DNA of 15,441 nt, taken from assembly GCA_903910495.1 (NCBI GenBank), contig CAIVZW010000139.1, forward strand, positions 1 through 15,441, written 5' to 3'. Made by a program: the position numbers and the translations under genes. Below the pieces are notes generated by a model. The model did not search any database. It had not been told where the DNA came from and worked only from the letters and a program-made list of their open reading frames with translations. Of this stretch, positions 536 to 13,104 are shown one piece after another. How positions within the stretch are numbered: the first letter of the stretch is position 1; every line of letters starts with the position of its first letter. Origin of the DNA: an uncultured beta proteobacterium (lineage in GTDB: Bacteria > Pseudomonadota > Gammaproteobacteria > Burkholderiales > Rhodocyclaceae).

Positions 536-1657
536 TCAGGCCAATGCGGGCTGATCCCACAATTTCAACTCCTGGCCGATATTTTTTTGAAGTGCGGTCT
601 GATAGACATCGTACCCCCAGCCAATGTCAAATACGGCCATTCCGCACGCGACGAATATAAAATTCTCCTCATCGCTCCTGCGTCCGACTTTTTCTCCTAA
701 GATGATTTGTCCTATCGACGTGAAACTTTGAAAATCTGGAAGCAATTTGTCATCGATTAGGCGATACATCGGTCCGCCAATGACTCCGTTGTAATAATTT
801 TGCTTGTCTCCGGAAGCAATTGCTTCTTCGACATACGCCTCGTGCAGACCGATATGGTCAAGTACGATCCGGTTCTTGATCCAGAAATCGTTATCTCCCT
901 GGGCAGGACCTGAGAGCAGGACTGTCGAGCCTTTCTTGAGCCATTCATTCTTGATGTGCAATGGCTTCAATCTCGAAGCGGCCACAGTCACAACATCTGC
1001 ATCACGGAGCGTCTCCTGCAGATCCATTGATCCAATACCCTCGATATCATATGTGGCTCCTGCCCAAGCAGCCATAGCCTTCGCCTTTTCTTCGAAAAGA
1101 TCAAAGCAATAGACTTTCTTGATTCCTTTGACCTGGGTCATGATATTGGTAAAGCAAGACTTGTTAATCGGGCCGCACCCAATGATGGCCGCTACACTTG
1201 AGCTCTTCCTTGCCAAGTGCCGTGCTGCTACCGCGGGAACAGCGCCAGTACGCGCCGCACTCAGTAGGTTGGCGGACATAAGGCACAGCGGGGCGCCCGT
1301 ATCCTTGTCGTTGAGCATGACTGTCAGGATGGATCGGGGCAGACCTTTCGCGGTATTTGCAGCGTTGGATCCGTACCACTTGTTTCCACAACAATCAAAC
1401 CTGCCGCCTAAATATGCAGGCATCGCAAAAAAACGCCGATCCGGTCCAGCTACCGGCATATTAGGAAAGCGAGTCTCTTTTGGAAAAATAACACCCATCC
1501 CATGGCTGTTGTGATTGCTCCCTCCCATAAGATAATCGCCTTGAGCAAGCAATTTGAATACTTCCTCAGTGACATCTACACATCTTGCCGCTTCATTGAC
1601 GCCGGCAGCTATAGTGTCAGGCTCGGACAAGTACAGGAACTTGATGCTTGTGTTCAT
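536..1657 (-). CDS. Ornithine cyclodeaminase/mu-crystallin family protein (tyramine oxidase subunit B-like)
   Basis: 373 aa NAD(P)-dependent Rossmann protein of the ornithine cyclodeaminase/mu-crystallin family. The start ATG is preceded by AGGAGAG at good spacing. Visible landmarks: K93 in NKWYGSN, matching the substrate-binding Lys region; R136 in SAARTGAVPAVAARHLA, the family's conserved RTGA motif; a dinucleotide loop GCGPIN at 160-165, where the usual third Gly/Ala is Asn; and D186 (CFDLF) at the end of the next strand, which favours NAD over NADP. Overall sequence style (MNTSIKFLYLSEPDTI at the start, ending LWDQPALA) resembles proteins annotated as tyramine oxidase subunit B, but no oxidase partner is in the window. 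Other members are cyclodeaminases, imino-acid reductases or alanine dehydrogenases, so the substrate is open. It lies 329 nt downstream of the enolase-like gene on the same strand and probably has its own promoter. Confidence 0.85.
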   Translation of the reverse strand: MNTSIKFLYLSEPDTIAAGVNEAARCVDVTEEVFKLLAQGDYLMGGSNHNSHGMGVIFPKETRFPNMPVAGPDRRFFAMPAYLGGRFDCCGNKWYGSNAANTAKGLPRSILTVMLNDKDTGAPLCLMSANLLSAARTGAVPAVAARHLARKSSSVAAIIGCGPINKSCFTNIMTQVKGIKKVYCFDLFEEKAKAMAAWAGATYDIEGIGSMDLQETLRDADVVTVAASRLKPLHIKNEWLKKGSTVLLSGPAQGDNDFWIKNRIVLDHIGLHEAYVEEAIASGDKQNYYNGVIGGPMYRLIDDKLLPDFQSFTSIGQIILGEKVGRRSDEENFIFVACGMAVFDIGWGYDVYQTALQKNIGQELKLWDQPALA

Positions 1658-1986: not shown

Positions 1987-3264
1987 CTAAAACCTGACCA
2001 AATGCTCAATATTGGCCAAGCCGCAACCTGGGCTTAAATCACAAGCACGCATCAGGAAATTTAACTTGTCAATTCGCTCGCCGGAGCGGGGTGCGCCGTT
2101 CTTCTGAAAAGGAACTTGCAGTCCTACCGAGAAATCCATGACGACATCTCTGACAACACCACCAGAACGACCTGATGGAACAGCGATCATCTGGTGTTCT
2201 TTGGCAAACTTGTACGTCTCTAGCGCCTCGGTGATCGTACCCACTTGATTCGGCTTTAATACAAACCCATCAACGGCCTTCGATTGATAGGCTCGTTCCA
2301 GACGCTTGATGTCCGTCACGATCAAATCGTCGCCGATGATGATCGTCCGCGGAATTTCTTTCACGGCTTTCGGATATGCATTCCAGTCGTTTTCATCCAA
2401 CAAATCCTCGATGAATACAAGATTGAATTTCTCTGCCAGTCTCTGCGCATATGAAATCAGATCGTCAGAAGTGATGCGATCGCCTTTTAGCAGATATGTA
2501 TTCGTCGCACTATCGAAAAACTCACTAGATGCGCAGTCGAGCGCAAAAGCCACTTTCTCGTTATAGCCGCAGCGATCAACGGCCTCCTGCATAAGTGACA
2601 AGATCACTTCAGGATCATCTGACGGGGCCTCATAACCGTATGAACTGGCAACCTTGGGATCAGATCCGGAATATTTCGCGATTACTACCTTAAGCTCTTG
2701 AAAAACCTTGACGCCAATCTCTACGGCTTCGTAAATGTCATTTGCCTTGTAGGGCATGATGATAAATTCATTGAAGGACTGAACCAGCCTTTCATTTCGG
2801 CCGCCGTTAATAACATTAAAGCCTGGAATCGGGACGGTCTTTATCTCCTCCCCTGCCAGATAGCGGTAGAGAGCTTGTCCGCTTGCCGCTGCAGCGGCTT
2901 CTATGCATGCGATTGAGGTTGAATAAATTGCATTGCCGCCAAGGTTTGCCTTGTTCTTCGTGCCATCGAGAGCAATCATTTTTTCATCGATTGCGCTTTG
3001 ATCTCTTACGTCCATACCAATTAGCGCAGGGCCGATAATTTCATTCACATTGCGCACGGCTGTATGGACGCTCAGGCCATGGTATTCCTTTGGGTTGCCG
3101 TCTCTCAGTACATACGCCTCATGCATGCCAACCGAAGACCCGGTCGGCGAACTACCGCGCCCCAACACACAATCCTCGGTGACAACATCGACTTCGACCA
3201 TGGGTCGGCATTTGCAGTCGATGAGTTGCCTTGCTTTAATTGATTTGATCTTTGTGTGTTGCAT
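1987..3264 (-). CDS. Divergent enolase-family protein with altered active site
   Basis: 425 aa, close to the usual enolase length. The start at 3264 (MQHTKIKSIKARQ) is chosen because GAAGG lies 8-9 nt upstream and it begins like enolases; the frame is open further upstream but would overlap the kinase gene. Enolase landmarks kept: Mg ligands D243 (DCASSEFF), E286 (FIEDLLDENDW) and D312 (GDDLIVTD); catalytic lysines K337 (LKPNQVGT) and K388 (QKNGAPRSGER); R366-S367 (GRSGG); E166 (FNEF); and the Ser loop GSSVG at 42-46. Changed: the His of GGEHADN is N157 (GGRNERL); the general-acid Glu of DEGGYAP is absent (SSYGYEAP, 207-214); the His of SHRSGE is G365. It follows the glycerate kinase by 43 nt, so the pair is probably co-transcribed. 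Either it dehydrates 2-phosphoglycerate by a modified mechanism or, as I think likelier, it acts on a related phospho-hydroxy acid. Confidence 0.88.
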   Translation of the reverse strand: MQHTKIKSIKARQLIDCKCRPMVEVDVVTEDCVLGRGSSPTGSSVGMHEAYVLRDGNPKEYHGLSVHTAVRNVNEIIGPALIGMDVRDQSAIDEKMIALDGTKNKANLGGNAIYSTSIACIEAAAAASGQALYRYLAGEEIKTVPIPGFNVINGGRNERLVQSFNEFIIMPYKANDIYEAVEIGVKVFQELKVVIAKYSGSDPKVASSYGYEAPSDDPEVILSLMQEAVDRCGYNEKVAFALDCASSEFFDSATNTYLLKGDRITSDDLISYAQRLAEKFNLVFIEDLLDENDWNAYPKAVKEIPRTIIIGDDLIVTDIKRLERAYQSKAVDGFVLKPNQVGTITEALETYKFAKEHQMIAVPSGRSGGVVRDVVMDFSVGLQVPFQKNGAPRSGERIDKLNFLMRACDLSPGCGLANIEHLVRF

Positions 3265-3307
3265 GAAAACTACCTTCGCTAAGCTGAAATGTGACAAATA
3301 CGAAATG

Positions 3308-4711
3308 CTAGTCGAGCGCCGGAATGTACAAAATATTGAAATCGCACAGATTCGTTCCCGTGTTGCCTGTGAATACGGCATCACCTATTGCCGATAGCGC
3401 CTCGTAAGTTGCGTGGCCACGCAGTGCGGCATGAACATCGACGTGAATTCTGACGGCAGTTGCATAGCTTTGGGAATCTGTAATTCCCCCGGCCACCTCG
3501 GTGGTGCCATCGGTGCCCTCGGAGTCGATCGAGAGCATGCACGCCCCTTTCGTTTTTGCCGCCGTGATCGCAAAGCTCAGGGTCAGTTCCTGTGATGGAC
3601 CGCCATGACCCGTAATTTCCTTGTTGTCGGGAATTCGCGTCGTCGTTTCGCCGGCGGTGAGAATCACGCAAGGCGCCTTTACCGGATTGCCGTGTGCTTG
3701 AATCTCGCGGGCAATCGAGGCAAAGAACGTTCCGGCGTCTTTACTTTCGCCTTCGAGGAATGAAGACAAGATAATTGCAGGCATGCCGATCTTTTCCGAT
3801 TCCTCCTTCGCGTAAATGCAGGAGTCAGCCAGTGTATTCAGCAGGTAATAAGTGTTATCGGGGAATTCCTTTGGCGTTTCTCCCTCCGGTCCGACATTCA
3901 TCAAATAATTGACGATAGTTTTCGGAAGTTTGTCGGCGAGGTCATAATCGCTTATGACTCTTCGCGCATCATCAAGCGTTGTCTTGTCTGGCCCAATCGG
4001 AGTACTGGCGTATTTCTTGTAGGGAACCCCTATATCTCCAGTTGGTGGATTTCCCACAGCATCGCTAATGCCCAAACCGATAAATTCAGCACCGACCGAT
4101 TGAATTCGTTTTGCCAACATTCCTCCATTCATCTGCGAGATGTGACGGCGAATGGCATTGATTTCATAGATACCGGCCCCCGATTTAAGCAATACATCGG
4201 TTGCATCAATTTCGTCTTGCAGGGAAATTCCATCAATCGGACAACTCATTAATGCGGAACTTCCACCGCTAATCACGCCGATAAACAGATCCTCAGGTCC
4301 GGAACTATCGACCAAGGCCAGTATTTTCTTCGACGCCAGGTAACCTTGTTCATTCGGAAGCGGATGGCCTCCGACGATGACTTCAGTTTTGTTGAACACA
4401 TCAGTTTCTTCTGCGATTTTTACAATCACAATTCCCTTTGTCAGCTTTTCGCCAAGGATCTCGTCGAAGGCGAGCGCCATGGCATTGCATGCCTTTCCGG
4501 ACCCAACCAAATAGACGTTTCTCTTTCTTGAAAGATCCCAGGATTTGATTCCTATATGGAGAACATCACCTTCCATGTGGGCGATACTCTTTATGCGCTT
4601 ATAGGAATCCAAGCGCTGCAAAGTCGCCTCAGCAATCGCCAGGACGATCTCTCTGGACTGCTGATCTCCGTGAGATACAAGGGCGTCGTAATTCCTTATT
4701 TTCTTAGTCAA
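3308..4711 (-). CDS. Glycerate 2-kinase, MOFRL/DUF4147 family
   Basis: 467 aa, a full-length member of the two-domain bacterial glycerate kinase family (N-terminal DUF4147, C-terminal MOFRL), which phosphorylates D-glycerate with ATP to 2-phosphoglycerate in the cytosol. Family motifs in order: VGSGKA near residue 70, GGHPLPNEQG near 114, SGGSSAL near 150, INAIRRHISQMNGG near 183, GETTTRI near 350, GHGGPSQE, DGTTEVAGG near 400 and the terminal TGTNLCDF. The start is a TTG at 4711-4709 with a perfect GGAGG six bases upstream; no in-frame ATG is better placed. A promoter with an embedded palindromic operator lies about 110 nt upstream (4822-4850). Co-directional with the enolase-like gene. Glycerate is the family's known substrate; a related hydroxy acid cannot be excluded given the odd enolase partner. 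Confidence 0.9.
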   Translation of the reverse strand: MTKKIRNYDALVSHGDQQSREIVLAIAEATLQRLDSYKRIKSIAHMEGDVLHIGIKSWDLSRKRNVYLVGSGKACNAMALAFDEILGEKLTKGIVIVKIAEETDVFNKTEVIVGGHPLPNEQGYLASKKILALVDSSGPEDLFIGVISGGSSALMSCPIDGISLQDEIDATDVLLKSGAGIYEINAIRRHISQMNGGMLAKRIQSVGAEFIGLGISDAVGNPPTGDIGVPYKKYASTPIGPDKTTLDDARRVISDYDLADKLPKTIVNYLMNVGPEGETPKEFPDNTYYLLNTLADSCIYAKEESEKIGMPAIILSSFLEGESKDAGTFFASIAREIQAHGNPVKAPCVILTAGETTTRIPDNKEITGHGGPSQELTLSFAITAAKTKGACMLSIDSEGTDGTTEVAGGITDSQSYATAVRIHVDVHAALRGHATYEALSAIGDAVFTGNTGTNLCDFNILYIPALD

Positions 4712-4821: not shown

Positions 4822-4853
4822 ATTATTGCCGATTGTCGACAATCATGCAATAA
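4822..4853 (-). promoter_or_regulatory. Operator A and promoter of the glycerate kinase/enolase-like operon
   Basis: A 14-bp perfect palindrome GATTGTCGACAATC (4831-4844) is flanked by TTATTGC and GCAATAA, giving a near-palindrome of about 30 bp. On the minus strand it reads TTGCAT (4850-4845), a 17-nt spacer holding the palindrome, then AATAAT (4827-4822), a plausible sigma-70 promoter facing the kinase gene. The core fits the GT-N-AC half-site pattern of FadR/FCD-type GntR regulators. An operator within the spacer would suit repression. The same extended sequence recurs, inverted, upstream of the TRAP genes. Confidence 0.68.
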
Positions 4854-5132
4854 GAAATAATTTTGGATTGGATACATACCGTTCAAGCGCGGACTTCCAG
4901 CCATGTAGTGCTGACCCGGGCCAAACAGATCGTTTGGCACTGGAGTTGGCGCGACATGTGAGGGGCAGAACTGATCGCGCTCAGTCGATCGGCGAGGATA
5001 ATCGACGGCGCTAAGTATCCCCTGGAAAACAAATTCTGGATTTGGCCAAAGATAAGCCAAGCGGATTACGACAAAGAGCTGGCATCTTTCGATGTAGTTG
5101 ATTTCAAGGAAATTACTCAGTTATTCAGCTGA
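4854..5132 (+). pseudogene. Unrecognised plus-strand gene remnant (3' end, one in-frame stop)
   Basis: A plus-strand frame between a TAA at 4851 and a TGA at 5130-5132 is interrupted only by TGA at 4959-4961. Its translation is unusually protein-like: TSSHVVLTRAKQIVWHWSW before the stop, then GAELIALSRSARIIDGAKYP, LENKFWIWPKISQADYDKE and ASFDVVDFKEITQLFS. There is no start codon or ribosome site at the left, so it reads as the C-terminal end of a decayed gene. I do not recognise the family. It overlaps the 3' end of the gntR gene by 16 nt. The opposite-strand frame 4737-5060 has no protein-like character and is taken as its shadow. Confidence 0.35.
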
Positions 5133-5887
5133 ACACGTGCGTTTTTGCGCGGTTTGAGATTTCTTAATCGAGTTTCTCGGACGCTCTGAATGTTCTTCTG
5201 ACCGTCCCTATCAACCTCTTCCAGACATTGCAAATGATGCAACAGTTTCTTGCCTTCACACTCGTTATGCACTTCAGCCAATGCACCCGCCTCTTGAGCA
5301 TCTCCTCGTAAGATTGCATCGACCAAGGGATGGTGCTGCTCATAAATTGTTTCCGGATCCTCAATTAACGAGTCACTTGACTTGATAACCAGGCGAATCT
5401 GGTTTTCAATATGTTCGTACTGCCACTTAAGTCGCCCATGACCCGCCAAGGAGATAATTGACTTATGCAGAGCGAAATCAGCTTCCGCAATTTCATCTTG
5501 ACGGCCCGACTTGCATGCCCTCATCAATCTGTTGTCGGATTCCGTTAGCTCATCAACTTTACTCTTGTCCAATGTTGTAGCGACCAACTGCGCCGCAAGT
5601 CGCTCAAGGCTCAATCTAAGAGTATAGAGTTCCCAAACATCCCGAGTGGAAAGCGATATAACTGTCCACCCTGTATATGGCACTAACGTAGTAAGACCTT
5701 CCGTCGAAAGCTGGTGGAGAGCCGCACGAATGGTTGCACGTGAAAGTCCCATTTCTTCAGACAACTGAGTCTCCGTTATTCGCGCCCCGAGAGGAATTGT
5801 TCCATCCGTTATCAATAGCCGGAGTGAGTCTGCCGCCTGAACTTCCGCTGAGCGCTTCACTATTTTCTGTGCGTTAAGAATAGTCAT
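5117..5887 (-). CDS. GntR-family transcriptional regulator, FadR/FCD subfamily
   Basis: 256 aa. An N-terminal winged helix-turn-helix (about residues 8-75) has the GntR signature GARITETQLSEEMGLSRATI followed by RAALHQLSTEGL. A C-terminal all-helical FCD ligand domain (about 85-220) shows the usual metal/ligand residues D137 and H141 (EADFALHKSI), H186 (EQHHPLVDAI) and H207 (EVHNECEGKK). Such proteins bind small carboxylates or sugar acids and usually repress nearby catabolic genes. The ATG has AAAGGTGA just upstream. The basic tail (about 230-256) is rich in Arg and Lys. It is the only regulator in the window, and it lies between operator A and operator B, so it is the natural candidate to bind the ATTGTCGACAAT sites. 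No such site is seen in front of its own start, so autoregulation is not evident. Confidence 0.93.
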   Translation of the reverse strand: MTILNAQKIVKRSAEVQAADSLRLLITDGTIPLGARITETQLSEEMGLSRATIRAALHQLSTEGLTTLVPYTGWTVISLSTRDVWELYTLRLSLERLAAQLVATTLDKSKVDELTESDNRLMRACKSGRQDEIAEADFALHKSIISLAGHGRLKWQYEHIENQIRLVIKSSDSLIEDPETIYEQHHPLVDAILRGDAQEAGALAEVHNECEGKKLLHHLQCLEEVDRDGQKNIQSVRETRLRNLKPRKNARVQLNN

Positions 5888-5992
5888 CAGTCACCTTTAT
5901 ACAGACACATTGCTCTTACAAATTGATAGGGTTCAACTACAAGACATCGTAACTTTGAATCTTTATGCGCCTATTTATGTCTTTGCGGAAGA

Positions 5993-6220
5993 CTAGGATA
6001 GCTGATCCATCCTCTGCCCTTTGAACCGTCCATCAAACCTACTGCAGCACAATCGCGACGTCAAGCGAGAACCGTTACTTTCGCCATATCGCAACTGATT
6101 ACGGTCTTCTCCCCGGTTGGGTATCCATTGTCGTCGGACTCGCTTGACTAGATGTTGTAGCCATTGACGCAATTCATCTTTCGTGCGGGTGCTATTGCGA
6201 GCGGCCGTCTCATCGCTCAT
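5993..6220 (-). CDS. Small hypothetical basic protein, uncertain
   Basis: 75 codons from an ATG with AAGGAAG nine bases upstream. The start reads MSDETAARNSTRTKDELRQW and the rest is rich in Arg, Gln and Trp, giving a strongly basic product. I recognise no domain; the length and basicity could fit a fragment of a transposon protein. It is divergent from the TRAP genes and stands 105 nt upstream of the gntR start on the same strand. The ribosome site is the only positive evidence, so this may be a chance frame. Confidence 0.22.
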   Translation of the reverse strand: MSDETAARNSTRTKDELRQWLQHLVKRVRRQWIPNRGEDRNQLRYGESNGSRLTSRLCCSRFDGRFKGQRMDQLS

Positions 6221-6529
6221 GCATCATCACTTCCTTGTGAAATACACGAACACATATGTTGGACTCCACGCAATCGAGGCTCTTCGCAAGCCGACAGAAG
6301 CTCAGTACGGGAGAATAAATTCGAAGCCAGCTGAGTGGGTGAGAACATTTGGGTAACCAGACCGCCCAGTCATAGTTGACCAAAATAACTTACACATACT
6401 TCACTCACGTCGAATTTTACCGGATGGTCAATCTTAACAAAGCCGGAAACGGGATATGTGATATTTCACACTATTTGAAACGGACTTTTATCAACCAGAT
6501 GACATCTTCGATAATTTTATAATTATCTA

Positions 6530-6558
6530 TTGCATTATTGTCGACAATCGGCAATACT
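6530..6558 (+). promoter_or_regulatory. Operator B and promoter of the TRAP transporter genes
   Basis: TTGCAT (6530-6535), a 17-nt spacer and AATACT (6553-6558) form a plausible sigma-70 promoter facing the TRAP genes. The spacer contains ATTGTCGACAAT (6537-6548). Read on the minus strand, about 28 nt here match operator A with one difference. Transcription from this promoter would leave a leader of roughly 245 nt before the TTG start at 6810. Confidence 0.65.
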
Positions 6559-6809
6559 TTTGTCAGTTTCAAGGGGCGGGACCTACAAAGTGTGCTCGTT
6601 TTTTGAAATACATCTTTTTGTCGGTAGATCAGTTCCCTAGAGTAGATATGGCATTGGTAACACATGCTGGGCTGTACTAGCGCACGTATCAAAGATTTTG
6701 TTGTCAGGGCCGTGAGCAGTAATCAATCGTTTCTAGATTGAGCAGGCGGATAGATGTATTTGGTTTGGTAAATAACTAGACATGAGAATAATCCGGGGAG
6801 GGAGAGACC

Positions 6810-8084
6810 TTGGCTCTAACAGTGTTGTGCATAAGTTTCGTTGTGCTGCTCGTGATCGGTTTTCCCATTGCGTTTAATCTGATTCTTAGCTCGATCTTTT
6901 ATCTGATTGCAGGGGATTACCCATTGACGCTCGTGCCGCAGCGTATCTTTCAGGGTATGAATGGCTTTGCCTTGCTTTCGGTGCCATTCTTCATTTTGAC
7001 CGGACAGCTAATGGTCAAGGGAAATCTTCTCAAATCGCTAGTAGACTTCGTCAATGCATTTCTGGGACATGTACGCGGGGCGCTCGCGCTCGTTACGGTC
7101 GGAACCTGTCTCTTCATGGGAGCCATTGTGGGGCTCGCGGTGGCAGAAACCGCATCGCTCGGATCATTCCTAATTCCGATGATGAAGAAGGAGGGCTACA
7201 AACCGGCCTTCGCTTCCGGGGTAATGGCCTGCGCATCCTTACTAGGGCCGATCATGCCGCCAAGCGTATTGATGATTCTGTACTGCATCTCGGTTGGTAA
7301 AACATCAATTGCCGGGATTTTCCTCGCCTCAGTTATCCCGGCTATCGCAATCGCCGTTGCCCAGATGTTAGTGATCTACTTCATTGCCAAAAAGAACAAA
7401 TTGCCCAACCATCTTAAAGCTGACTGGCCTGAGAGATGGATTCAGTTTCGCAAGGCGCTTCCTGCGCTGATGCTTCCCGCCATCATCCTCGGCGGGATTT
7501 TTAGCGGAGTCTTCACTGTAACTGAGGCCTCGGCAGCCGCTGCCGCCTACGCTTTTGTTATTTCAATGCTGGTGATGAAGGACGTCAAGTGGCGTGATCT
7601 TCCGCCGATTTTCATGGAAACTGCCATTACGTCGGGACTCGTGATTCTTTTGGCTGGCGCTGCTACGGTAACCGCCTGGGCGATTGCCAACGAGCAGATT
7701 ATAGACATCATTAGCGCCCCGCTGGCGAATGTCCCTCTGTGGCTCTTCCTTCTTCTGCTCAACATCCTGCTACTGATCAACGGGATGTTCATGGACGACT
7801 ATGCGTCCGTTATAGTGCTGGGCCCTATCTTGGCGCCAATCGCTTGGGCTATGGGTGTGGATCCGCTTCAGATCGGAGTGATCATCTGTGTCAATCTCGT
7901 TATCGGGCTTGCGACGCCGCCATTCGGTATCGTCTTATTCGTGACCAGCCCAATGGCCGGCACGACCATCGAGGAGACATTCAAGGCAGGATGGCCGATG
8001 ATCACCGCCAGCATCGTTGTCCTCTTTCTGTTGACCTACTTCCCGCCAATCACGCTGTGGTTGCCCAGGATGTTTGGTTACTAG
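6810..8084 (+). CDS. dctM: TRAP transporter large membrane subunit (DctM family)
   Basis: 424 aa, very hydrophobic, with roughly a dozen membrane segments. It is the sodium-coupled transport channel of a tripartite ATP-independent periplasmic (TRAP) system. Family motifs: GFPIAFNLILSS at the start, LLSVPFFILTGQLM near residue 55, GAIVGLAVAETASLGSFLIP near 103-122, LLGPIMPPSVLMILY near 143, GVFTVTEASAAAAAYA near 233 and GLATPPFGIVLFV near 367. The start is a TTG preceded by GGGGAGGGAGAG. An ATG at 6782 is in another frame, so the TTG is preferred. It is the first gene of the plus-strand operon, driven from operator/promoter B, with the binding protein 80 nt downstream. Having the M subunit first is uncommon; P-Q-M is more usual. 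Confidence 0.95.
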   Translation: MALTVLCISFVVLLVIGFPIAFNLILSSIFYLIAGDYPLTLVPQRIFQGMNGFALLSVPFFILTGQLMVKGNLLKSLVDFVNAFLGHVRGALALVTVGTCLFMGAIVGLAVAETASLGSFLIPMMKKEGYKPAFASGVMACASLLGPIMPPSVLMILYCISVGKTSIAGIFLASVIPAIAIAVAQMLVIYFIAKKNKLPNHLKADWPERWIQFRKALPALMLPAIILGGIFSGVFTVTEASAAAAAYAFVISMLVMKDVKWRDLPPIFMETAITSGLVILLAGAATVTAWAIANEQIIDIISAPLANVPLWLFLLLLNILLLINGMFMDDYASVIVLGPILAPIAWAMGVDPLQIGVIICVNLVIGLATPPFGIVLFVTSPMAGTTIEETFKAGWPMITASIVVLFLLTYFPPITLWLPRMFGY

Positions 8085-8164
8085 GCAATATTCAAGAGTA
8101 GTGGAAGTCGCATGGAAGCAAGCAGAAGTGTTATTCAACCATCTAGATCAAAGGAGACAAGTCA

Positions 8165-9196
8165 ATGAAAAGCTTTTACTCGTGGACTACCAAGAGTGTC
8201 GTCGTCGTATTGGCACTTCTGTTGTCAAGCCTTGCGTTTTCTGCAACACCCATCAAGGTTCGCGTATCCCTGTGCAACGCAGTGACACATCCACAGTCGA
8301 TCGGCATGCTGATGTTCAAGAAATACGTCGAAGAAAAGACGCAGGGTGGGTTGCAGGTAGCTCTCTATTACAATTCCCAACTCGGTGGTGAGCGGGAATC
8401 AGTGGAACAAGTGGCGAGTGGGGCGTTGGAAATGGCCACCGCGTCAGCTGGCCCCCTGACAACATTCAATAACAAGTTCATGGTTTTGGATATTCCGTTC
8501 GCCTTCGACAGTTATGAGATAGCGTGGGGTGTGCTTGATGGATCGATGGGCCAGGCGCTGCTTGGTTCAAGTGAAAAACAAGGACTCAAGGGTCTTGCCT
8601 ATCTGGAAAATGGCTTTCGTCACGTGACCAACAACGTGAAGCCGATCAACGGCCCGGACGATCTCAAAGGAATTAAGCTGCGGACGATGGAAGCGCCTAT
8701 GCATATGGAGAACTTCAAACTACTTGGCGCAAACCCAACTCCAGTTCCCTGGACAGAGCTGTACATGACGATGCAACAGAAGATTGTTGATGGTCAGGAG
8801 AATCCGTTGGCGAACATATGGGAAGTGAAAATGTTTGAAGTACAGAAATTCACCTCCTTGACCGGCCATATTTACGACCCGATGCCATTGGTCGCAAACC
8901 TCGCGTGGTTCAAGAAACTTCCCAAGGACTATCAATCGGCAATTGAAACGGGCGCTGTGCTGGCCCAGAATTACAGTCGCTATGTCAATATGGCGCGCGA
9001 GTCTTCTATTGTGGCGAAGCTGACCGACAAGGGTATGAAGGTCAATGAATTGACCGTTGCTAGCAAAGACGCTATGCGCACCAAGTCCCAGGCTGCTATT
9101 GTCGAAAAAGTCAAAGCAAAAACCGACAAGAAGTTCGTCGACGATTGGCTGGCGTCGATTGCAGTGATGAAGAAGGATGTGAACGCGGGCTTCTGA
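8165..9196 (+). CDS. dctP: TRAP transporter substrate-binding protein (DctP family)
   Basis: 343 aa periplasmic solute-binding protein. The first 27 residues are a Sec signal peptide: a basic start, a hydrophobic core VVVVLALLLSSLAF and an AFSA cleavage site. AGGAG lies 7-8 nt before the ATG. Conserved features of DctP proteins: LGGERESVEQVASGALEM near 73-90, R173 in GIKLRTMEAP (the arginine that normally pairs with the substrate carboxylate) and DGQENP at 209-214 in the hinge and binding region. This predicts a small organic acid anion as ligand, in keeping with the glycerate kinase and LarA-like genes. A stem-loop follows the stop codon (9218-9247) and may raise the level of this protein over the membrane subunits. 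Confidence 0.95.
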   Translation: MKSFYSWTTKSVVVVLALLLSSLAFSATPIKVRVSLCNAVTHPQSIGMLMFKKYVEEKTQGGLQVALYYNSQLGGERESVEQVASGALEMATASAGPLTTFNNKFMVLDIPFAFDSYEIAWGVLDGSMGQALLGSSEKQGLKGLAYLENGFRHVTNNVKPINGPDDLKGIKLRTMEAPMHMENFKLLGANPTPVPWTELYMTMQQKIVDGQENPLANIWEVKMFEVQKFTSLTGHIYDPMPLVANLAWFKKLPKDYQSAIETGAVLAQNYSRYVNMARESSIVAKLTDKGMKVNELTVASKDAMRTKSQAAIVEKVKAKTDKKFVDDWLASIAVMKKDVNAGF

Positions 9197-9217
9197 TCGT
9201 TCCGTTTAAAGTCAGAA

Positions 9218-9247
9218 ACGGGGGCGCATTGCTGTAGCGTCCCCCGT
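9218..9247 (+). promoter_or_regulatory. Stem-loop between dctP and dctQ
   Basis: ACGGGGGCGC (9218-9227) pairs with GCGTCCCCCGT (9237-9247) with one bulged base and a 9-nt loop. No U-run follows, so full termination is unlikely. A stable hairpin just after a binding-protein gene commonly protects its mRNA or attenuates the next gene; that role is inferred here. Confidence 0.5.
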
Positions 9248-9314
9248 CGCACTGAAGTCCTCTGCATTTGAATGAGCATCCTGATGGCATAACCCGGGTA
9301 CCGGAGCAATCCAA

Positions 9315-9827
9315 ATGGAAAAAATGAGTCTGGAAAAAATTTGCGACTCTGTTGAGAAGACTACGCTTCACGTTACCATGGCGCTCGGCATCGTCATGCT
9401 CATTGTCGCGTGGATGCATGTAACCGGGCGCTATGTATTCAACAGCGCATTAACCTGGTCTGAAGAGTTTCTTCGATTCGCAATCGTCTGGTATGCCCTG
9501 CTCAGTGCGAGCATCCTGCACAAAAGGAATGGTCACCTGGGAATCACCATCATTAGGGAAGCGATGCCGCTTGCTTTGCAACAGAATCTGAAGCGAATAG
9601 TGACCTATTTGGGAACCTTGACGGTGGCGCTTGTAACCGTATTTGGAGCAATACTAGTTTATCGCACACAGGCACAGACCACACCAGCGCTTGGCATATC
9701 AATGGCGTTGCCCTATGCCGCAATCCCATTCAGTTTTCTGCTAATGACCTTTTACGGCATAGTCCATATTATCCGTGATGCAAAAGGACTAGCGCCTCTT
9801 ACTGCCGGGCAATCGGACCATCCTTGA
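9315..9827 (+). CDS. dctQ: TRAP transporter small membrane subunit (DctQ family)
   Basis: 170 aa with four predicted membrane segments (about residues 18-40, 50-67, 90-115 and 128-150), as expected for the DctQ subunit that partners the large channel. Family features: VTGRYVFNSALTWSEEFLRF near 36-55 (the RYVF...WSEE signature) and HKRNGHLGI near 69-77. GGAG stands 8 nt before the chosen ATG; a second ATG at codon 4 is possible. It is the last gene of the TRAP operon and converges with the LarA-like gene, with an inverted repeat between them. Confidence 0.93.
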   Translation: MEKMSLEKICDSVEKTTLHVTMALGIVMLIVAWMHVTGRYVFNSALTWSEEFLRFAIVWYALLSASILHKRNGHLGITIIREAMPLALQQNLKRIVTYLGTLTVALVTVFGAILVYRTQAQTTPALGISMALPYAAIPFSFLLMTFYGIVHIIRDAKGLAPLTAGQSDHP

Positions 9828-9831
9828 ACCA

Positions 9832-9868
9832 CGGTCAATCTTGCGGCAATTTTCAAGAGCCTTGACCG
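9832..9868. terminator. Inverted repeat between convergent dctQ and LarA-like genes
   Basis: CGGTCAA-TCTTG (9832-9843) pairs with CAAGA (9854-9858) and TTGACCG (9862-9868), with a GCC bulge and a 10-nt loop. It sits between two converging genes, where a bidirectional terminator is expected, but neither strand has a good T-run. Confidence 0.4.
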
Positions 9869-9941
9869 CTGCTTGCCTCGGGCGAACAATCGCTTGGATG
9901 ATAGTCATGAGCAATGTCGATGAACTGCTGGTAGATCGAGT

Positions 9942-11222
9942 CTATCGCGCTTTGGTATTCAATGGAGCGAGGGTTCCGTCGGGGGTGAATGCGAGAGGGT
10001 AGGAATTGTCCAGAATCTGTATGTCGGCACGCCCCTGACATTCAGCGAGCAGAGCAGAACTCACTTGCATGACCTCAAGGTCACGGGTGTTGATGATACG
10101 CACAAGGCGCAAAGTCTCCATATCCACAGGTCCGATCGTGGCAATGCCCGCTTCCACGGCGGCATGATCGGTTGGCAGCACCATCGGAATACGCGCATGT
10201 TCAGGCTCAGAGCCGGCGAGCGCGTTTACGTATAAGGCCTGCCGATCGATCTTTGTGTAGAGGCGTTCTGTGATGAAGTCGGCGATACCAACACCGTCGG
10301 CGTTCCCCTTTGAAATATCGGTCAGGTCGCATACAACAATGCGTTTGATGCGCGGAGTTTTTGGATCGGGACCTAAAAGCGGCATCGAAAGGCGGCCGAC
10401 GACTTTCGTATCGAACCCGGAACCGGAAATATCCTTGCCCATTTCGTCAATCACGAGAACGTCAATATCTTCGAACGGCAGTTTCGGAATCATCTTGCGA
10501 GCCAACTTCAGGAGTTTCACCTCTTCGGCGAGAAGCCTTTCCGCAGAAATGACTTTGACCTGGGATGTCTGCGCCAGGCCATCCTCGACGATGCCGACGC
10601 CAAAGAGCAGCGGTCGTGTTTCCAGGATAAGGTTGGCGATCGCTTCAATCGTAGCAGCGTAGCCATGTTTCATGAAGAAACGATGGTATAAGGTGGCGCC
10701 AAACTCCTTTCCCATCCCGATGGCCATCATCTTCATGAGGCCCGATTCAAAACTGTGCGTAAACTCGGTGTGCGACTTGATGCGGTTGACAACGACGAAA
10801 GCGTCAGCCTGAAATGCCGATCGATCCATCACTACGGGCATTCCCGTAGGTAGTTGTCCAACGATCTCGACATCAAGCGATGAAATTATGGGACAGCCCA
10901 TGGTTTTTTCGCTGATGCCGGTACGTGCCAACACCTGTGCTTGTCCTCTTGCGGTGGCAGAACCATGACTACCCATCGCCGGAAACAAATGAGGTCTATA
11001 GCCGGCAGCCTTCAAGCCATTGACCACGGCTTTGACGATCAACGCATAATTCTTGATTCCCCGGCTGCTGCATCCCACTGCCACCCTTGCCCCTGGACGA
11101 ACCTTGAGCGAGGGTACCAGACGCAAGATGCTGTCCTCAATTGAACCCTGGATGTCAACCAGCGGGCGCGACACGATCTGTTGCCTGATCCGTCCCATCA
11201 GAGGATAAGGATTCATTATCAT
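9942..11222 (-). CDS. LarA-like (DUF2088, lactate racemase N-terminal domain) protein
   Basis: 426 aa cytosolic protein related to nickel-pincer lactate racemase LarA. LarA-type residues can be placed: R54 in GCSSRGIKN, H86 in AMGSHGSAT, H151 in NRIKSHTEF, K164 in ESGLMKMMAIGMGK and H180 in TLYHRFF. The K164-H180 spacing of 16 equals that between the cofactor-bound Lys184 and Ni-ligand His200 of Lactobacillus LarA; the H151-K164 spacing is three longer than in LarA. Known LarA homologues racemise or epimerise 2-hydroxy acids, so interconversion of a hydroxy acid such as glycerate is a reasonable guess. No larB, larC or larE cofactor genes are in the window. The start at 11222 lacks a clear ribosome site; an ATG two codons on (11216) is an alternative. 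A promoter and operator C lie 190-255 nt upstream. Confidence 0.85.
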   Translation of the reverse strand: MIMNPYPLMGRIRQQIVSRPLVDIQGSIEDSILRLVPSLKVRPGARVAVGCSSRGIKNYALIVKAVVNGLKAAGYRPHLFPAMGSHGSATARGQAQVLARTGISEKTMGCPIISSLDVEIVGQLPTGMPVVMDRSAFQADAFVVVNRIKSHTEFTHSFESGLMKMMAIGMGKEFGATLYHRFFMKHGYAATIEAIANLILETRPLLFGVGIVEDGLAQTSQVKVISAERLLAEEVKLLKLARKMIPKLPFEDIDVLVIDEMGKDISGSGFDTKVVGRLSMPLLGPDPKTPRIKRIVVCDLTDISKGNADGVGIADFITERLYTKIDRQALYVNALAGSEPEHARIPMVLPTDHAAVEAGIATIGPVDMETLRLVRIINTRDLEVMQVSSALLAECQGRADIQILDNSYPLAFTPDGTLAPLNTKAR

Positions 11223-11412
11223 CGGAGCATAATTCCATCACCAGGTCGAATTACAGAACAATTCTTTTCACTTCACCGTAGGCCGAGGTTAAGGCGATTT
11301 GTTCAAGTTGCGCATAACCTACATCAGTTCGTGTTCTGTCTCGTTCATACCACTTGCCCCATTACAACTGCATGATCGAGTTTTGGCCGATCAAAAGCTA
11401 CTTTGTAATTGG

Positions 11413-11441
11413 CTTATAAGCCGAAAAAATATAAATGCTAA
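11413..11441 (-). promoter_or_regulatory. Candidate promoter of the LarA-like gene
   Basis: On the minus strand TTAGCA (11441-11436), a 17-nt spacer and TATAAG (11418-11413) match sigma-70 elements at 4 of 6 and 5 of 6 positions. The expected start site is near 11406, giving a leader of roughly 185 nt. Operator C is centred about 65 nt upstream of that start. Confidence 0.45.
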
Positions 11442-11460
11442 GGCCACAAACATGCTCAAT

Positions 11461-11488
11461 GCGATATTGTCGACAATTATCGTGCAAT
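11461..11488. promoter_or_regulatory. Operator C, third copy of the ATTGTCGACAAT palindrome
   Basis: ATTGTCGACAAT (11466-11477) is an exact 12-bp match to the cores of operators A and B. The outer flanks differ (GCGAT on the left, TATCGTGC on the right), though TTGCAC on the minus strand keeps part of the TTGCAT box. It lies upstream of the LarA-like gene and links that gene to the same regulator. Confidence 0.62.
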
Positions 11489-11742: not shown

Positions 11743-12982
11743 TCAACTCCCCATGCCGTGGAAGCTGTTCACACCCTTCTTGCGCAACAGATGGATCTTC
11801 GCCAGCCCGCCCTCGGCTGTTTCTCTGTAAATCGATTTCATATTACGCCCGGTTTCCCACATGGTGCTCACCACTTCGTCAAAGGAAACGATGTGCTGAC
11901 CGTCAGAGAGCAGCGCATAGGCCGCGCAATCGACCGCACGAACTGCGGCGATGGCATTGCGCTCAATGCATGGAATCTGCACATAGCCGCCAATCGGATC
12001 ACAGGTGAGTCCCAGATGGTGTTCGAGTCCCATCTCTGCAGCATATTCGATCTGGCGTACGGAGCCCCCCCAATAGCTGAGCAGCAGCTCCAGCGGCCAT
12101 GGCGCATGCTGTTCCTACTTCACCCTGGCAACCGACTTCTGCCCCGGAGATCGAGGCATTGCGTTTGACCACGTTGCCGATCATGCCGGCAGTAGCCAAA
12201 GCCCGAACGATCTTCTCGTCGGAAAGATTCGACTGTTTCTTCAGGAAAAAGAAAACTCCCGGCAAAACGCCGCACGACCCACATGTCGGCGCAGTAACGA
12301 TCTCGCCACCGGCAGCGTTTTCTTCCGATACCGCCAGTGCATAGGCAAAGAGCAAGGCCGTTTGCCCGAAGTAGCCCACCATACTCTGTGCCCGGGCATG
12401 ATAGGCAGAAGCCTTGCGTGGAACGTTGAGCGAACCAGGCAACTTACCCTCGGCGTTGAGGCCACGCTCGATAGTTTTTTGCATGGCCGCCCAGATGTTT
12501 TCCAGATAGGGCCAGATGGCTACTCCTTCGTGCTGCATTACCAGTTCCCAGATCAGCAGACCGTCGCCTTCAGCCTGTTCAAGAATCTCTTGTATGCACG
12601 TGTAAGGATAGACGTCTTGTCCACCATCCGGCTGGCCATCTGCATCAAGCAAGGCGCCTCCACCCACGGAATAGGTGATGCGGGACGAAACGACACGTCC
12701 TGTTTCATCAAGCGCTTCGAATTTCATGCCATTAGGATGGCGCGGAAGCCGTTGTTCGGGTACCCAGACGAGCTCGACAGGAGTCGGAAAGAAAGGTTTG
12801 CTCACGGCCAGATCCGTGAGATGTCCGCGCCCGGTGGCCGCCAGGCTGCCATAGAGCGTGACGCGGATATGCGCCGCTGACGACACGGAATCCCTGAACG
12901 CTTCTGCGGCAAAATTCGGACCCATGGTATGACTGCTCGATGGTCCGATACCAATCCGATAAAGCTCTCTGAGCGATTTCAT
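11743..12982 (-). pseudogene. sdaA: L-serine ammonia-lyase (iron-sulfur, single chain), frameshifted
   Basis: L-serine dehydratase with a [4Fe-4S] cluster, converting L-serine to pyruvate and ammonia. The start at 12982 gives MKSLRELYRIGIGPSSSHTM, the classic N-terminus, with GAAGGG about 10 nt upstream. The first frame carries APTCGSCGVLPG and [15 protein letters not shown] and then runs out of register at LLGG, ending at 11999. The family sequence resumes in another frame from about 12064 ([20 protein letters not shown], then [15 protein letters not shown], then GGLAKIHLL) to a TGA at 11743. The break falls at a run of seven G on the minus strand (12065-12071); six would restore a protein of about 412 aa. 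Two of the three presumed cluster cysteines (LTCDP, PCIERN) lie after the break, so the truncated product should be inactive. This is either a real mutation, slippage or a sequencing error in the homopolymer. Confidence 0.85.
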
Positions 12983-13104
12983 GTACTGCTTACCCTTCAA
13001 AAAGGGGACCCGCGGCTGACGCTTTACTGAAAGCAGAGAGATACAAACCGGCACGATTCGCCGCAACCGGTATTAAGCAGCACTGCCCTGCCTTTACAAC
13101 AGGT

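Follow-up and report, generated by a model that had tools for sequence, protein, structure and literature searches.

The window analysed here, a 15,441-nucleotide stretch of DNA from an uncultured beta proteobacterium, carries the same 12-bp palindrome in front of three adjacent and unlike transcription units. Do these copies unite the units in one regulon, and which protein would read them? Our reading, drawn from sequence comparison, is that the GntR/FCD protein encoded at 5117-5887 uses all three palindromes as its operators, which places the three units in one catabolic regulon. We put the probability of this reading at roughly 85%. The features on which the argument turns are as follows.

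536..1657, minus strand: OCD, ornithine cyclodeaminase/mu-crystallin family, third gene of a conserved operon
1987..3384, minus strand: enolase-like protein; the ORF start is too long by about 40 codons
3308..4711, minus strand: glycerate 2-kinase-like protein (DUF4147 and MOFRL)
4832..4843, strand not applicable: predicted operator 1, core ATTGTCGACAAT, upstream of the kinase/enolase-like/OCD operon; matrix score 30.4
5117..5887, minus strand: 256-aa GntR-family protein carrying an FCD ligand domain, both by Pfam match; candidate reader of the predicted operators
6537..6548, strand not applicable: predicted operator 2, core palindrome, upstream of the TRAP transporter operon; matrix score 29.5
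6810..8084, plus strand: TRAP large permease DctM, by domain/family match
8165..9196, plus strand: TRAP solute-binding protein DctP, by domain/family match
9315..9827, plus strand: TRAP small permease DctQ, by domain/family match
9942..11222, minus strand: LarA-like nickel-pincer-nucleotide isomerase, NCBIfam group 22 (NF052515)
11466..11477, strand not applicable: predicted operator 3, core palindrome, upstream of the LarA-like gene; matrix score 21.6

Rarity and structure of the palindrome

The first-pass annotation had recorded three exact palindromes and no further copy in the window, each copy being intergenic and upstream of a metabolic unit, and we reproduced both observations. Exact copies of ATTGTCGACAAT occur at 4832-4843, 6537-6548 and 11466-11477 only. 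Site 1 is 121 bp from the TTG start of the glycerate-kinase-like ORF (4711, minus strand), site 2 is 262 bp from the TTG start of dctM (6810, plus strand) and site 3 is 244 bp from the ATG of the LarA-like ORF (11222, minus strand). Among the 19 window matches listed for the palindrome, the 16 that are not exact have two or three mismatches, and a first-order model predicts 0.0017 exact copies in the window. Across 19 of the 20 relatives' genomes (L003 was left out), or about 112 Mb as a sum of rounded sizes, the exact 12-mer was found at 21 distinct places, with 0 to 4 per genome. Given this rarity, three copies in 15.4 kb are far above chance, and the many random genomic copies that would have spoken against a regulon were not seen in these relatives.

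The palindrome had been assigned to FadR/FCD-type regulators as a GT-N-AC arrangement. The assignment holds, in that both the window's ATTGTCGACAAT and ATTGTCNGACAAT, a 13-bp form seen in relatives, match the FadR/FCD operator form NyGTM-N0-1-KACNy (PMC4494728); the core spacing is GT-N2-AC.

A weight matrix built from 44 sites, all of them from other genomes, scored the three sites at 30.4, 29.5 and 21.6. The next-best place in the window scored 1.7, and the top score in 60 first-order random sequences was 14.0. Sites 1 and 2 also share a feature that the annotation had missed: each, when read towards its own downstream gene, is TATTGCATN-ATTGTCGACAAT-CGGCAATA. The outer half-sites extend to about 4825-4851 at site 1 and to about 6529-6555 at site 2, and the flanks of the two sites are identical at 23/32 bases, whereas the fraction of random flank pairs reaching at least 22/32 was 0.0001. 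Site 3 has no outer half-sites in the same phase; its flanks match those of site 1 at 10/32 bases and those of site 2 at 9/32 (better orientation each), leaving the core alone in common. A minus-strand promoter-like match overlaps site 3, although such matches are weak (3 in the window versus 1.7 in shuffles). The Rfam scan of the window gave no match at gathering scores.

Conservation beside the regulator and the kinase operon

The 256-aa protein contains a GntR winged HTH and an FCD domain, both of which pass their Pfam cut-offs, and of the 11 main ORFs that were scanned only this one encodes a regulator, in agreement with the earlier claim of a single regulator gene. Eighty loci of GntR relatives were kept from 115 confirmed in a genome scan. 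The palindrome, with at most one mismatch, was present within 400 bp upstream of gntR in 41/80 of these loci, whereas 119 control palindromes reached at most 3/80 in the same test; in the other 39/80, no 12-mer was found within that distance. In the window itself, the 400 bp upstream of gntR likewise contain no site, the nearest being about 650 bp away. The loci compared gave no match to a possible remnant of a gene near 4950-5108 (plus strand).

The kinase/enolase-like/OCD operon is conserved in Rhizobium, Sinorhizobium, Agrobacterium, Shinella, Erwinia, Pseudomonas and others, and the kinase is 67-74% identical to its counterparts in full triad operons. A script found the 12-mer in 9/20 head promoters of kinase/enolase-like operons (controls, at most 1/20), a count that rose to 11/20 after over-long starts in L019 and L065 were mended manually. 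Six of the remaining nine head promoters carry the 13-bp form. Erwinia has two exact copies of the 13-mer in 5.9 Mb, one upstream of gntR and the other upstream of the kinase gene. The exact 12-mer likewise occurs twice in the 7.1 Mb of Rhizobium vallis, once in the stretch that separates gntR from the kinase operon and once at the start of a solute-binding (importer) gene, so that R. vallis resembles the window in having exact copies at a kinase operon and an importer gene. An Agrobacterium cucumeris plasmid has exact sites upstream of the kinase and of a solute-binding gene, and a further locus, L014, has weaker sites (two mismatches) upstream of gntR, a TRAP operon and an enolase-like/kinase operon. 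Thus, the site is conserved beside both GntR relatives and kinase-operon orthologues, as the proposed regulon had called for, and this conservation together with the matrix scores supports it. By comparison with relatives, the grouping is supported for the kinase and importer units; the LarA-like unit found no such support in the genomes searched. The best identities of DctP to plasmid-borne relatives were below 60%.

Operator spacing, 12-bp versus 13-bp, follows regulator clade in these sequence comparisons, a pattern newly seen here. The Fisher test on site forms ignored relatedness and counted L031, whereas L023, having neither site, was excluded. In both loci the kinase gene is partial (262 residues align in L023 and 107 in L031), and neither locus contains an enolase-like or OCD gene. 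We considered, and did not adopt, a swap of regulators between these operator forms; the enzyme tree mixes both sets, with weak support.

The LarA-like gene and other readings of the sites

The LarA-like protein passes the NF052515 cut-off and has the LarA fold, which places it in group 22. Relatives 66-84% identical to it exist. We found no close orthologue in the genomes searched, the samples being part of each taxonomic group; an empty result from a search without a known positive carries no weight. There were 0/19 hits in the relatives' genomes (E<=1e-40), 0/148 in the genus of G010 (E<=1e-100), 0/394 in its family (E<=1e-110), 0/300 in the order of G009 (E<=1e-110), and 0/274 and 2/289 in the classes of G001 and G018, respectively (E<=1e-90). 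In the order of G010, 9/297 genomes gave hits at E<=1e-60, all distant (35-42% identity). Ten of 11 distant hits were examined with 19 kb around them: none of the window's other proteins had a homologue there (0/10; E<=1e-4), and 1/10 had the 12-mer, with one mismatch, at a distance of about 6-7 kb. The predicted membership of the LarA-like gene in the regulon is therefore drawn from this window only. One Haladaptatus plasmid has a group-22-like gene about 25 kb from a kinase/enolase-like pair, and on two further such plasmids both genes are some 24-26 kb apart; we did not take these arrangements as support.

These results bear on the possibility that the regulon consists of sites 1 and 2 only, site 3 being degenerate or foreign and the LarA-like gene standing outside the pathway. 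Although the missing in-phase half-sites, the score of 21.6 versus about 30 and the lack of a comparative link in the genomes searched all fit this reading, we consider it unlikely: 21 exact copies in about 112 Mb make the 12-mer rare, and several palindromes upstream of gntR in relatives likewise lack outer half-sites.

A different question is whether the local GntR protein is the reader. The PrpR regulator of the Pseudomonas 2-methylcitrate cycle is also named PmiR. Its predicted 12-bp consensus in P. aeruginosa is identical to ATTGTCGACAAT, and gel shifts showed binding of PrpR to the DNA upstream of prpR (PMC9765439). The exact 12-mer appears in four papers, this one among them, and its 10-base core in 38. 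Because the 12-mer is this published motif, it could be read by a different FCD GntR, and a PrpR-like protein of the host might read the sites wholly or partly while the local GntR reads elsewhere or shares them. Three of the 21 genome-wide exact copies lie at prpR-like genes in Pseudomonas, and 7/21 lie away from loci of the window's regulator type. However, no prp genes are among the window's protein families, the kinase-operon sites accompany relatives of the local GntR, and at sites 1 and 2 the outer half-sites agree with the ones beside these relatives. We regard such a reader as improbable. We rejected the reading of the palindromes as repeats that arose by chance or as hairpins of transcription terminators: a terminator scan did mark stems overlapping sites 1 and 2, but terminator-like sites numbered 2 in the window versus 2.2 in shuffles, the expected copy number is minute and the site is conserved upstream of genes in relatives.

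Proposed mechanism and comparison with known systems

Under the preferred reading, in which the local protein unites all three units, a GntR/FCD dimer would bind the core ATTGTC-GACAAT, with outer ATTG half-sites probably strengthening sites 1 and 2. The protein would repress, rather than activate, the kinase/enolase-like/OCD operon, the TRAP importer operon and the LarA-like gene. The inducer at the FCD domain may be an early product or the imported substrate itself; it is probably a 2-hydroxy acid, for example a derivative of glycerate, and its binding would lift repression so that import and catabolism are switched on together.

The kinase has DUF4147 and MOFRL domains and is similar to structures 2b8n and 1x3l, and it scores below the NCBIfam glycerate 2-kinase equivalog cut-offs (188.9 versus 550 bits and 142.4 versus 670). 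The enolase-like protein passes TIGR01060 (359.2 bits; cut-off, 300). The active-site residues of enolase include His159, Glu211 and His373 (yeast numbering). The window's protein has Asn, Ser and Gly in their place, with the metal ligands retained, and its close orthologues have Tyr, Ser and Gly in 11/11 aligned. Because three key residues are replaced, the protein is probably not an enolase, and a true enolase channelling glycerate to PEP is doubtful.

We offer only tentatively, at well short of even odds, the joint proposal of an undescribed catabolic route and an operator spacing that changes along with the regulator. A substituted glycerate or other 2,3-dihydroxy acid would be imported, the nickel-pincer isomerase would set it to one stereoform, and the glycerate-kinase-like enzyme would then phosphorylate it at C2. 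The enolase-like enzyme would split the phosphorylated acid with departure of a group other than enolase's, since it has lost residues around the leaving hydroxyl and phosphate. One GntR clade would read the operon through a 2-nt-spaced operator and another through a 3-nt-spaced one.

If correct, the regulon turns three adjacent, unlike units into one testable catabolic system, gives a possible regulatory context to a nickel-pincer isomerase group without a named function, and cautions against assuming that the enolase-like enzyme of the operon is an enolase. Two operator spacings ahead of one operon would also be a useful case for the evolution of GntR specificity. Literature searches returned nothing beyond a review for GntR, glycerate kinase, enolase, TRAP transporter and regulon together, and no match for any three of DUF4147, enolase, glycerate 2-kinase and hydantoinase.

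The window's isomerase shares family and fold with the LarA superfamily, whose lactate racemases also racemise glycerate (PMC7583248, PMC11770544), and within it is a group 22 member by NCBIfam; the term 'group 22' is absent from the main texts of these two papers. PrpR shares the palindrome. The structure 7xp0, which the Pseudomonas prpR product matches at 416 bits, is also the best solved relative of the window's GntR, at only 73.6 bits, and neither PrpR orthology nor, among the window's protein families, neighbouring prp or other 2-methylcitrate genes were found. The regulon type is already known in bacteria, and the palindrome, also printed for PrpR, is thus not unique to the window's regulator. 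Several FadR-subfamily regulators, namely GntR, HpxS, HypR, MdcY, PrpR and UxuR, have a 2-nt GT-AC spacing (PMC4494728). The window's system resembles these 2-nt-spaced FCD regulons in its HTH and FCD protein, its GT-N2-AC core palindrome, its extra half-sites by the core and its sites before catabolic and transport units, and differs from them in the genes concerned, which are kinase, enolase-like, OCD, TRAP and LarA-like.

Three candidate operators in the window

Three exact copies of the 12-bp palindrome ATTGTCGACAAT, and none further in the window, had been reported in the first-pass annotation, and an exact-match scan agreed. The chance expectation under a first-order model is 0.0017 copies. 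The sites and the genes around them are as follows.

536-1657 (-), OCD gene
1987-3384 (-), enolase-like gene
3308-4711 (-), glycerate-kinase-like gene
4832-4843, site 1, 121 bp ahead of the glycerate-kinase-like ORF start
5117-5887 (-), gntR, encoding a 256-aa GntR/FCD regulator
6537-6548, site 2, 262 bp ahead of the dctM start
6810-9827 (+), TRAP transporter genes, in the order M-P-Q
9942-11222 (-), LarA-like nickel-pincer isomerase gene, NCBIfam group 22
11466-11477, site 3, 244 bp ahead of the LarA-like ORF start

When sites 1 and 2 were each oriented toward the gene that they precede, 23 of 32 flanking bases were equal; the likeness of site 3 to these sites was limited to the core. A matrix built from 44 sites, all outside the window, scored the three sites at 30.4, 29.5 and 21.6, with 1.7 for the next best position in the window and 14.0 as the top score in 60 first-order random sequences. 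The 13-bp form, which has a longer spacing between GT and AC, did not occur in the window, and no palindrome was found close upstream of the window gntR gene.

Between site 1 and gntR, an open stretch (4950-5108, +) resembles the C-terminal remnant of a gene since lost; it had no match among the collected relatives' loci. The serine dehydratase gene (11743-13066, -) looks frameshifted, its C-terminal part lying in another frame with 59-62% identity to two relatives, which may reflect gene decay or a sequencing error.

Conservation beside GntR relatives

Loci of GntR relatives were collected for 80 of 115 confirmed. The palindrome, allowing one mismatch, was present in the 400 bp ahead of gntR at 41 of the 80 loci, a rate 50 times that in the remainder of these loci, whereas 119 control palindromes of the same letters reached a maximum of 3/80 (mean 0.08). 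This comparison supports the earlier proposal of a candidate operator, apparently kept beside the regulator's relatives. Alignment of the sites revealed weaker outer half-sites, approximately ATTGNCG-ATTGTCGACAAT-CGNCAAT. Features described for FadR-type GntR regulators in PMC4494728 include additional half-sites at a distance of 7-12 nt from the centre, as well as GT-to-AC spacings of 2 or 3 nt.

A census of either operator form with at most one mismatch identified 105 sites in 81 loci, of which 90 were near an ORF start, 7 were deep within an ORF without a nearby start and 8 were neither. Adjoining ORFs included 35 gntR and 11 kinase ORFs; others that were scanned were single members of the importer binding protein, hydantoinase, amidase and 2-hydroxyacid dehydrogenase families. 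Upstream of gntR, cyanobacterial relatives carry ATTGTTGACAAT, which in one locus (L041, 9860-9871) is part of a perfect 26-bp palindrome; in six other loci it precedes an ORF belonging to a class II aldolase-like cluster (one of these was scanned).

The kinase operon, its operator spacings and its enolase-like protein

A kinase close to that of the window was found in 12 of the 80 loci, 10 of which contained the full triad of kinase, enolase-like and OCD genes. Hosts were Rhizobium, Sinorhizobium, Shinella, Erwinia, Pseudomonas entomophila and two alphaproteobacterial loci; L023 and L031 had a partial kinase only. In the GntR tree, the regulators at kinase loci formed two supported clades, A (window, L012, L025, L026, L027, L036 and L106) and B (L028, L030, L034, L040 and L042). 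The 12-bp form preceded the kinase gene in 7/7 full triads of clade A, and the 13-bp form did so in 5/5 of clade B. Of the two partial loci, L031 (clade B) had the 13-bp form and L023 (clade A) neither, and the 12-bp form was never ahead of the kinase gene in clade B full triads or L031. Over whole loci, the 13-bp form occurred in 12/13 of clade B versus 2/30 of clade A and the 12-bp form in 25/30 of clade A versus 5/13 of clade B, although a Fisher value for this association overstates the case because the loci are related. The two sets were intermixed in the enzyme tree, where support was weak. Five loci (L032, L035, L037, L038 and L057) combine a 12-bp form upstream of gntR with a 13-bp form downstream.

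The enolase-like protein passes the enolase model and retains the metal ligands, both lysines, Glu168, Arg374 and Ser375. At the enolase active-site residues His159, Glu211 and His373 (yeast numbering) it has Asn, Ser and Gly. In all 11 close orthologues that were aligned, these positions hold Tyr, Ser and Gly, so that two of the window protein's three replacements recur in every one of them; Leu, Glu and Glu are found in a distant group (L014, L019, L065 and a Haladaptatus protein). Because three enolase residues are replaced, a plain glycerate-to-PEP route is doubtful.

Proposed regulon membership and relation to PrpR

Sites at both kinase and importer genes, the pattern of the window, recur elsewhere as judged from sequence. 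Of the two exact copies in R. vallis, one separates gntR from the kinase operon and the other is located where a family 3 solute-binding gene begins. An Agrobacterium cucumeris plasmid (L106) has exact sites ahead of the kinase gene and of a solute-binding gene, and its triad adjoins hydantoinase, epimerase, dehydratase and importer genes. The distant L014 has 2-mismatch sites ahead of gntR, a TRAP operon and an enolase-like/kinase operon. The L106 kinase operon lies within a large catabolic-looking cluster (377-22955) with genes for hydantoinase A/B, epimerase, SDR, dihydroxy-acid dehydratase, a DMSP-lyase-like protein and pyruvate carboxylase.

The first-pass annotation was correct on the sequence, and its view that the palindrome-linked units form a regulon of the window GntR protein is most probably correct. 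The unusual parts are the two operator spacings, the enolase-like enzyme and the group 22 isomerase, the last of which, its link being seen in the window only, is a possible member.

The 12-mer is also scarce in whole genomes, with 21 exact copies over 19 genomes of relatives, 5 of which had none. Thirteen copies fell within regulator loci (one, in L019, deep in an ORF) and one just beyond L001, flanked by genes for a kinase and an aldehyde dehydrogenase. Of four copies elsewhere, two were near other FCD GntR genes. The remaining three were at Pseudomonas prpR-like genes, whose products showed 85-100% identity to one another's reference; one product matched the solved structure 7xp0 with 416 bits, and the gene that comes after one of them is PEP mutase/isocitrate lyase-like. 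From these placements, the 12-mer is uncommon and in most cases associated with FCD regulators, but not with the window's regulator alone. The central variant ATTGGCGACAAT was commoner (28 places, 14/19 genomes). The window's candidate operator is the same 12-mer as the motif predicted for Pseudomonas PrpR (PMC9765439); the probable regulon is new, and its regulator is of a well-known kind.
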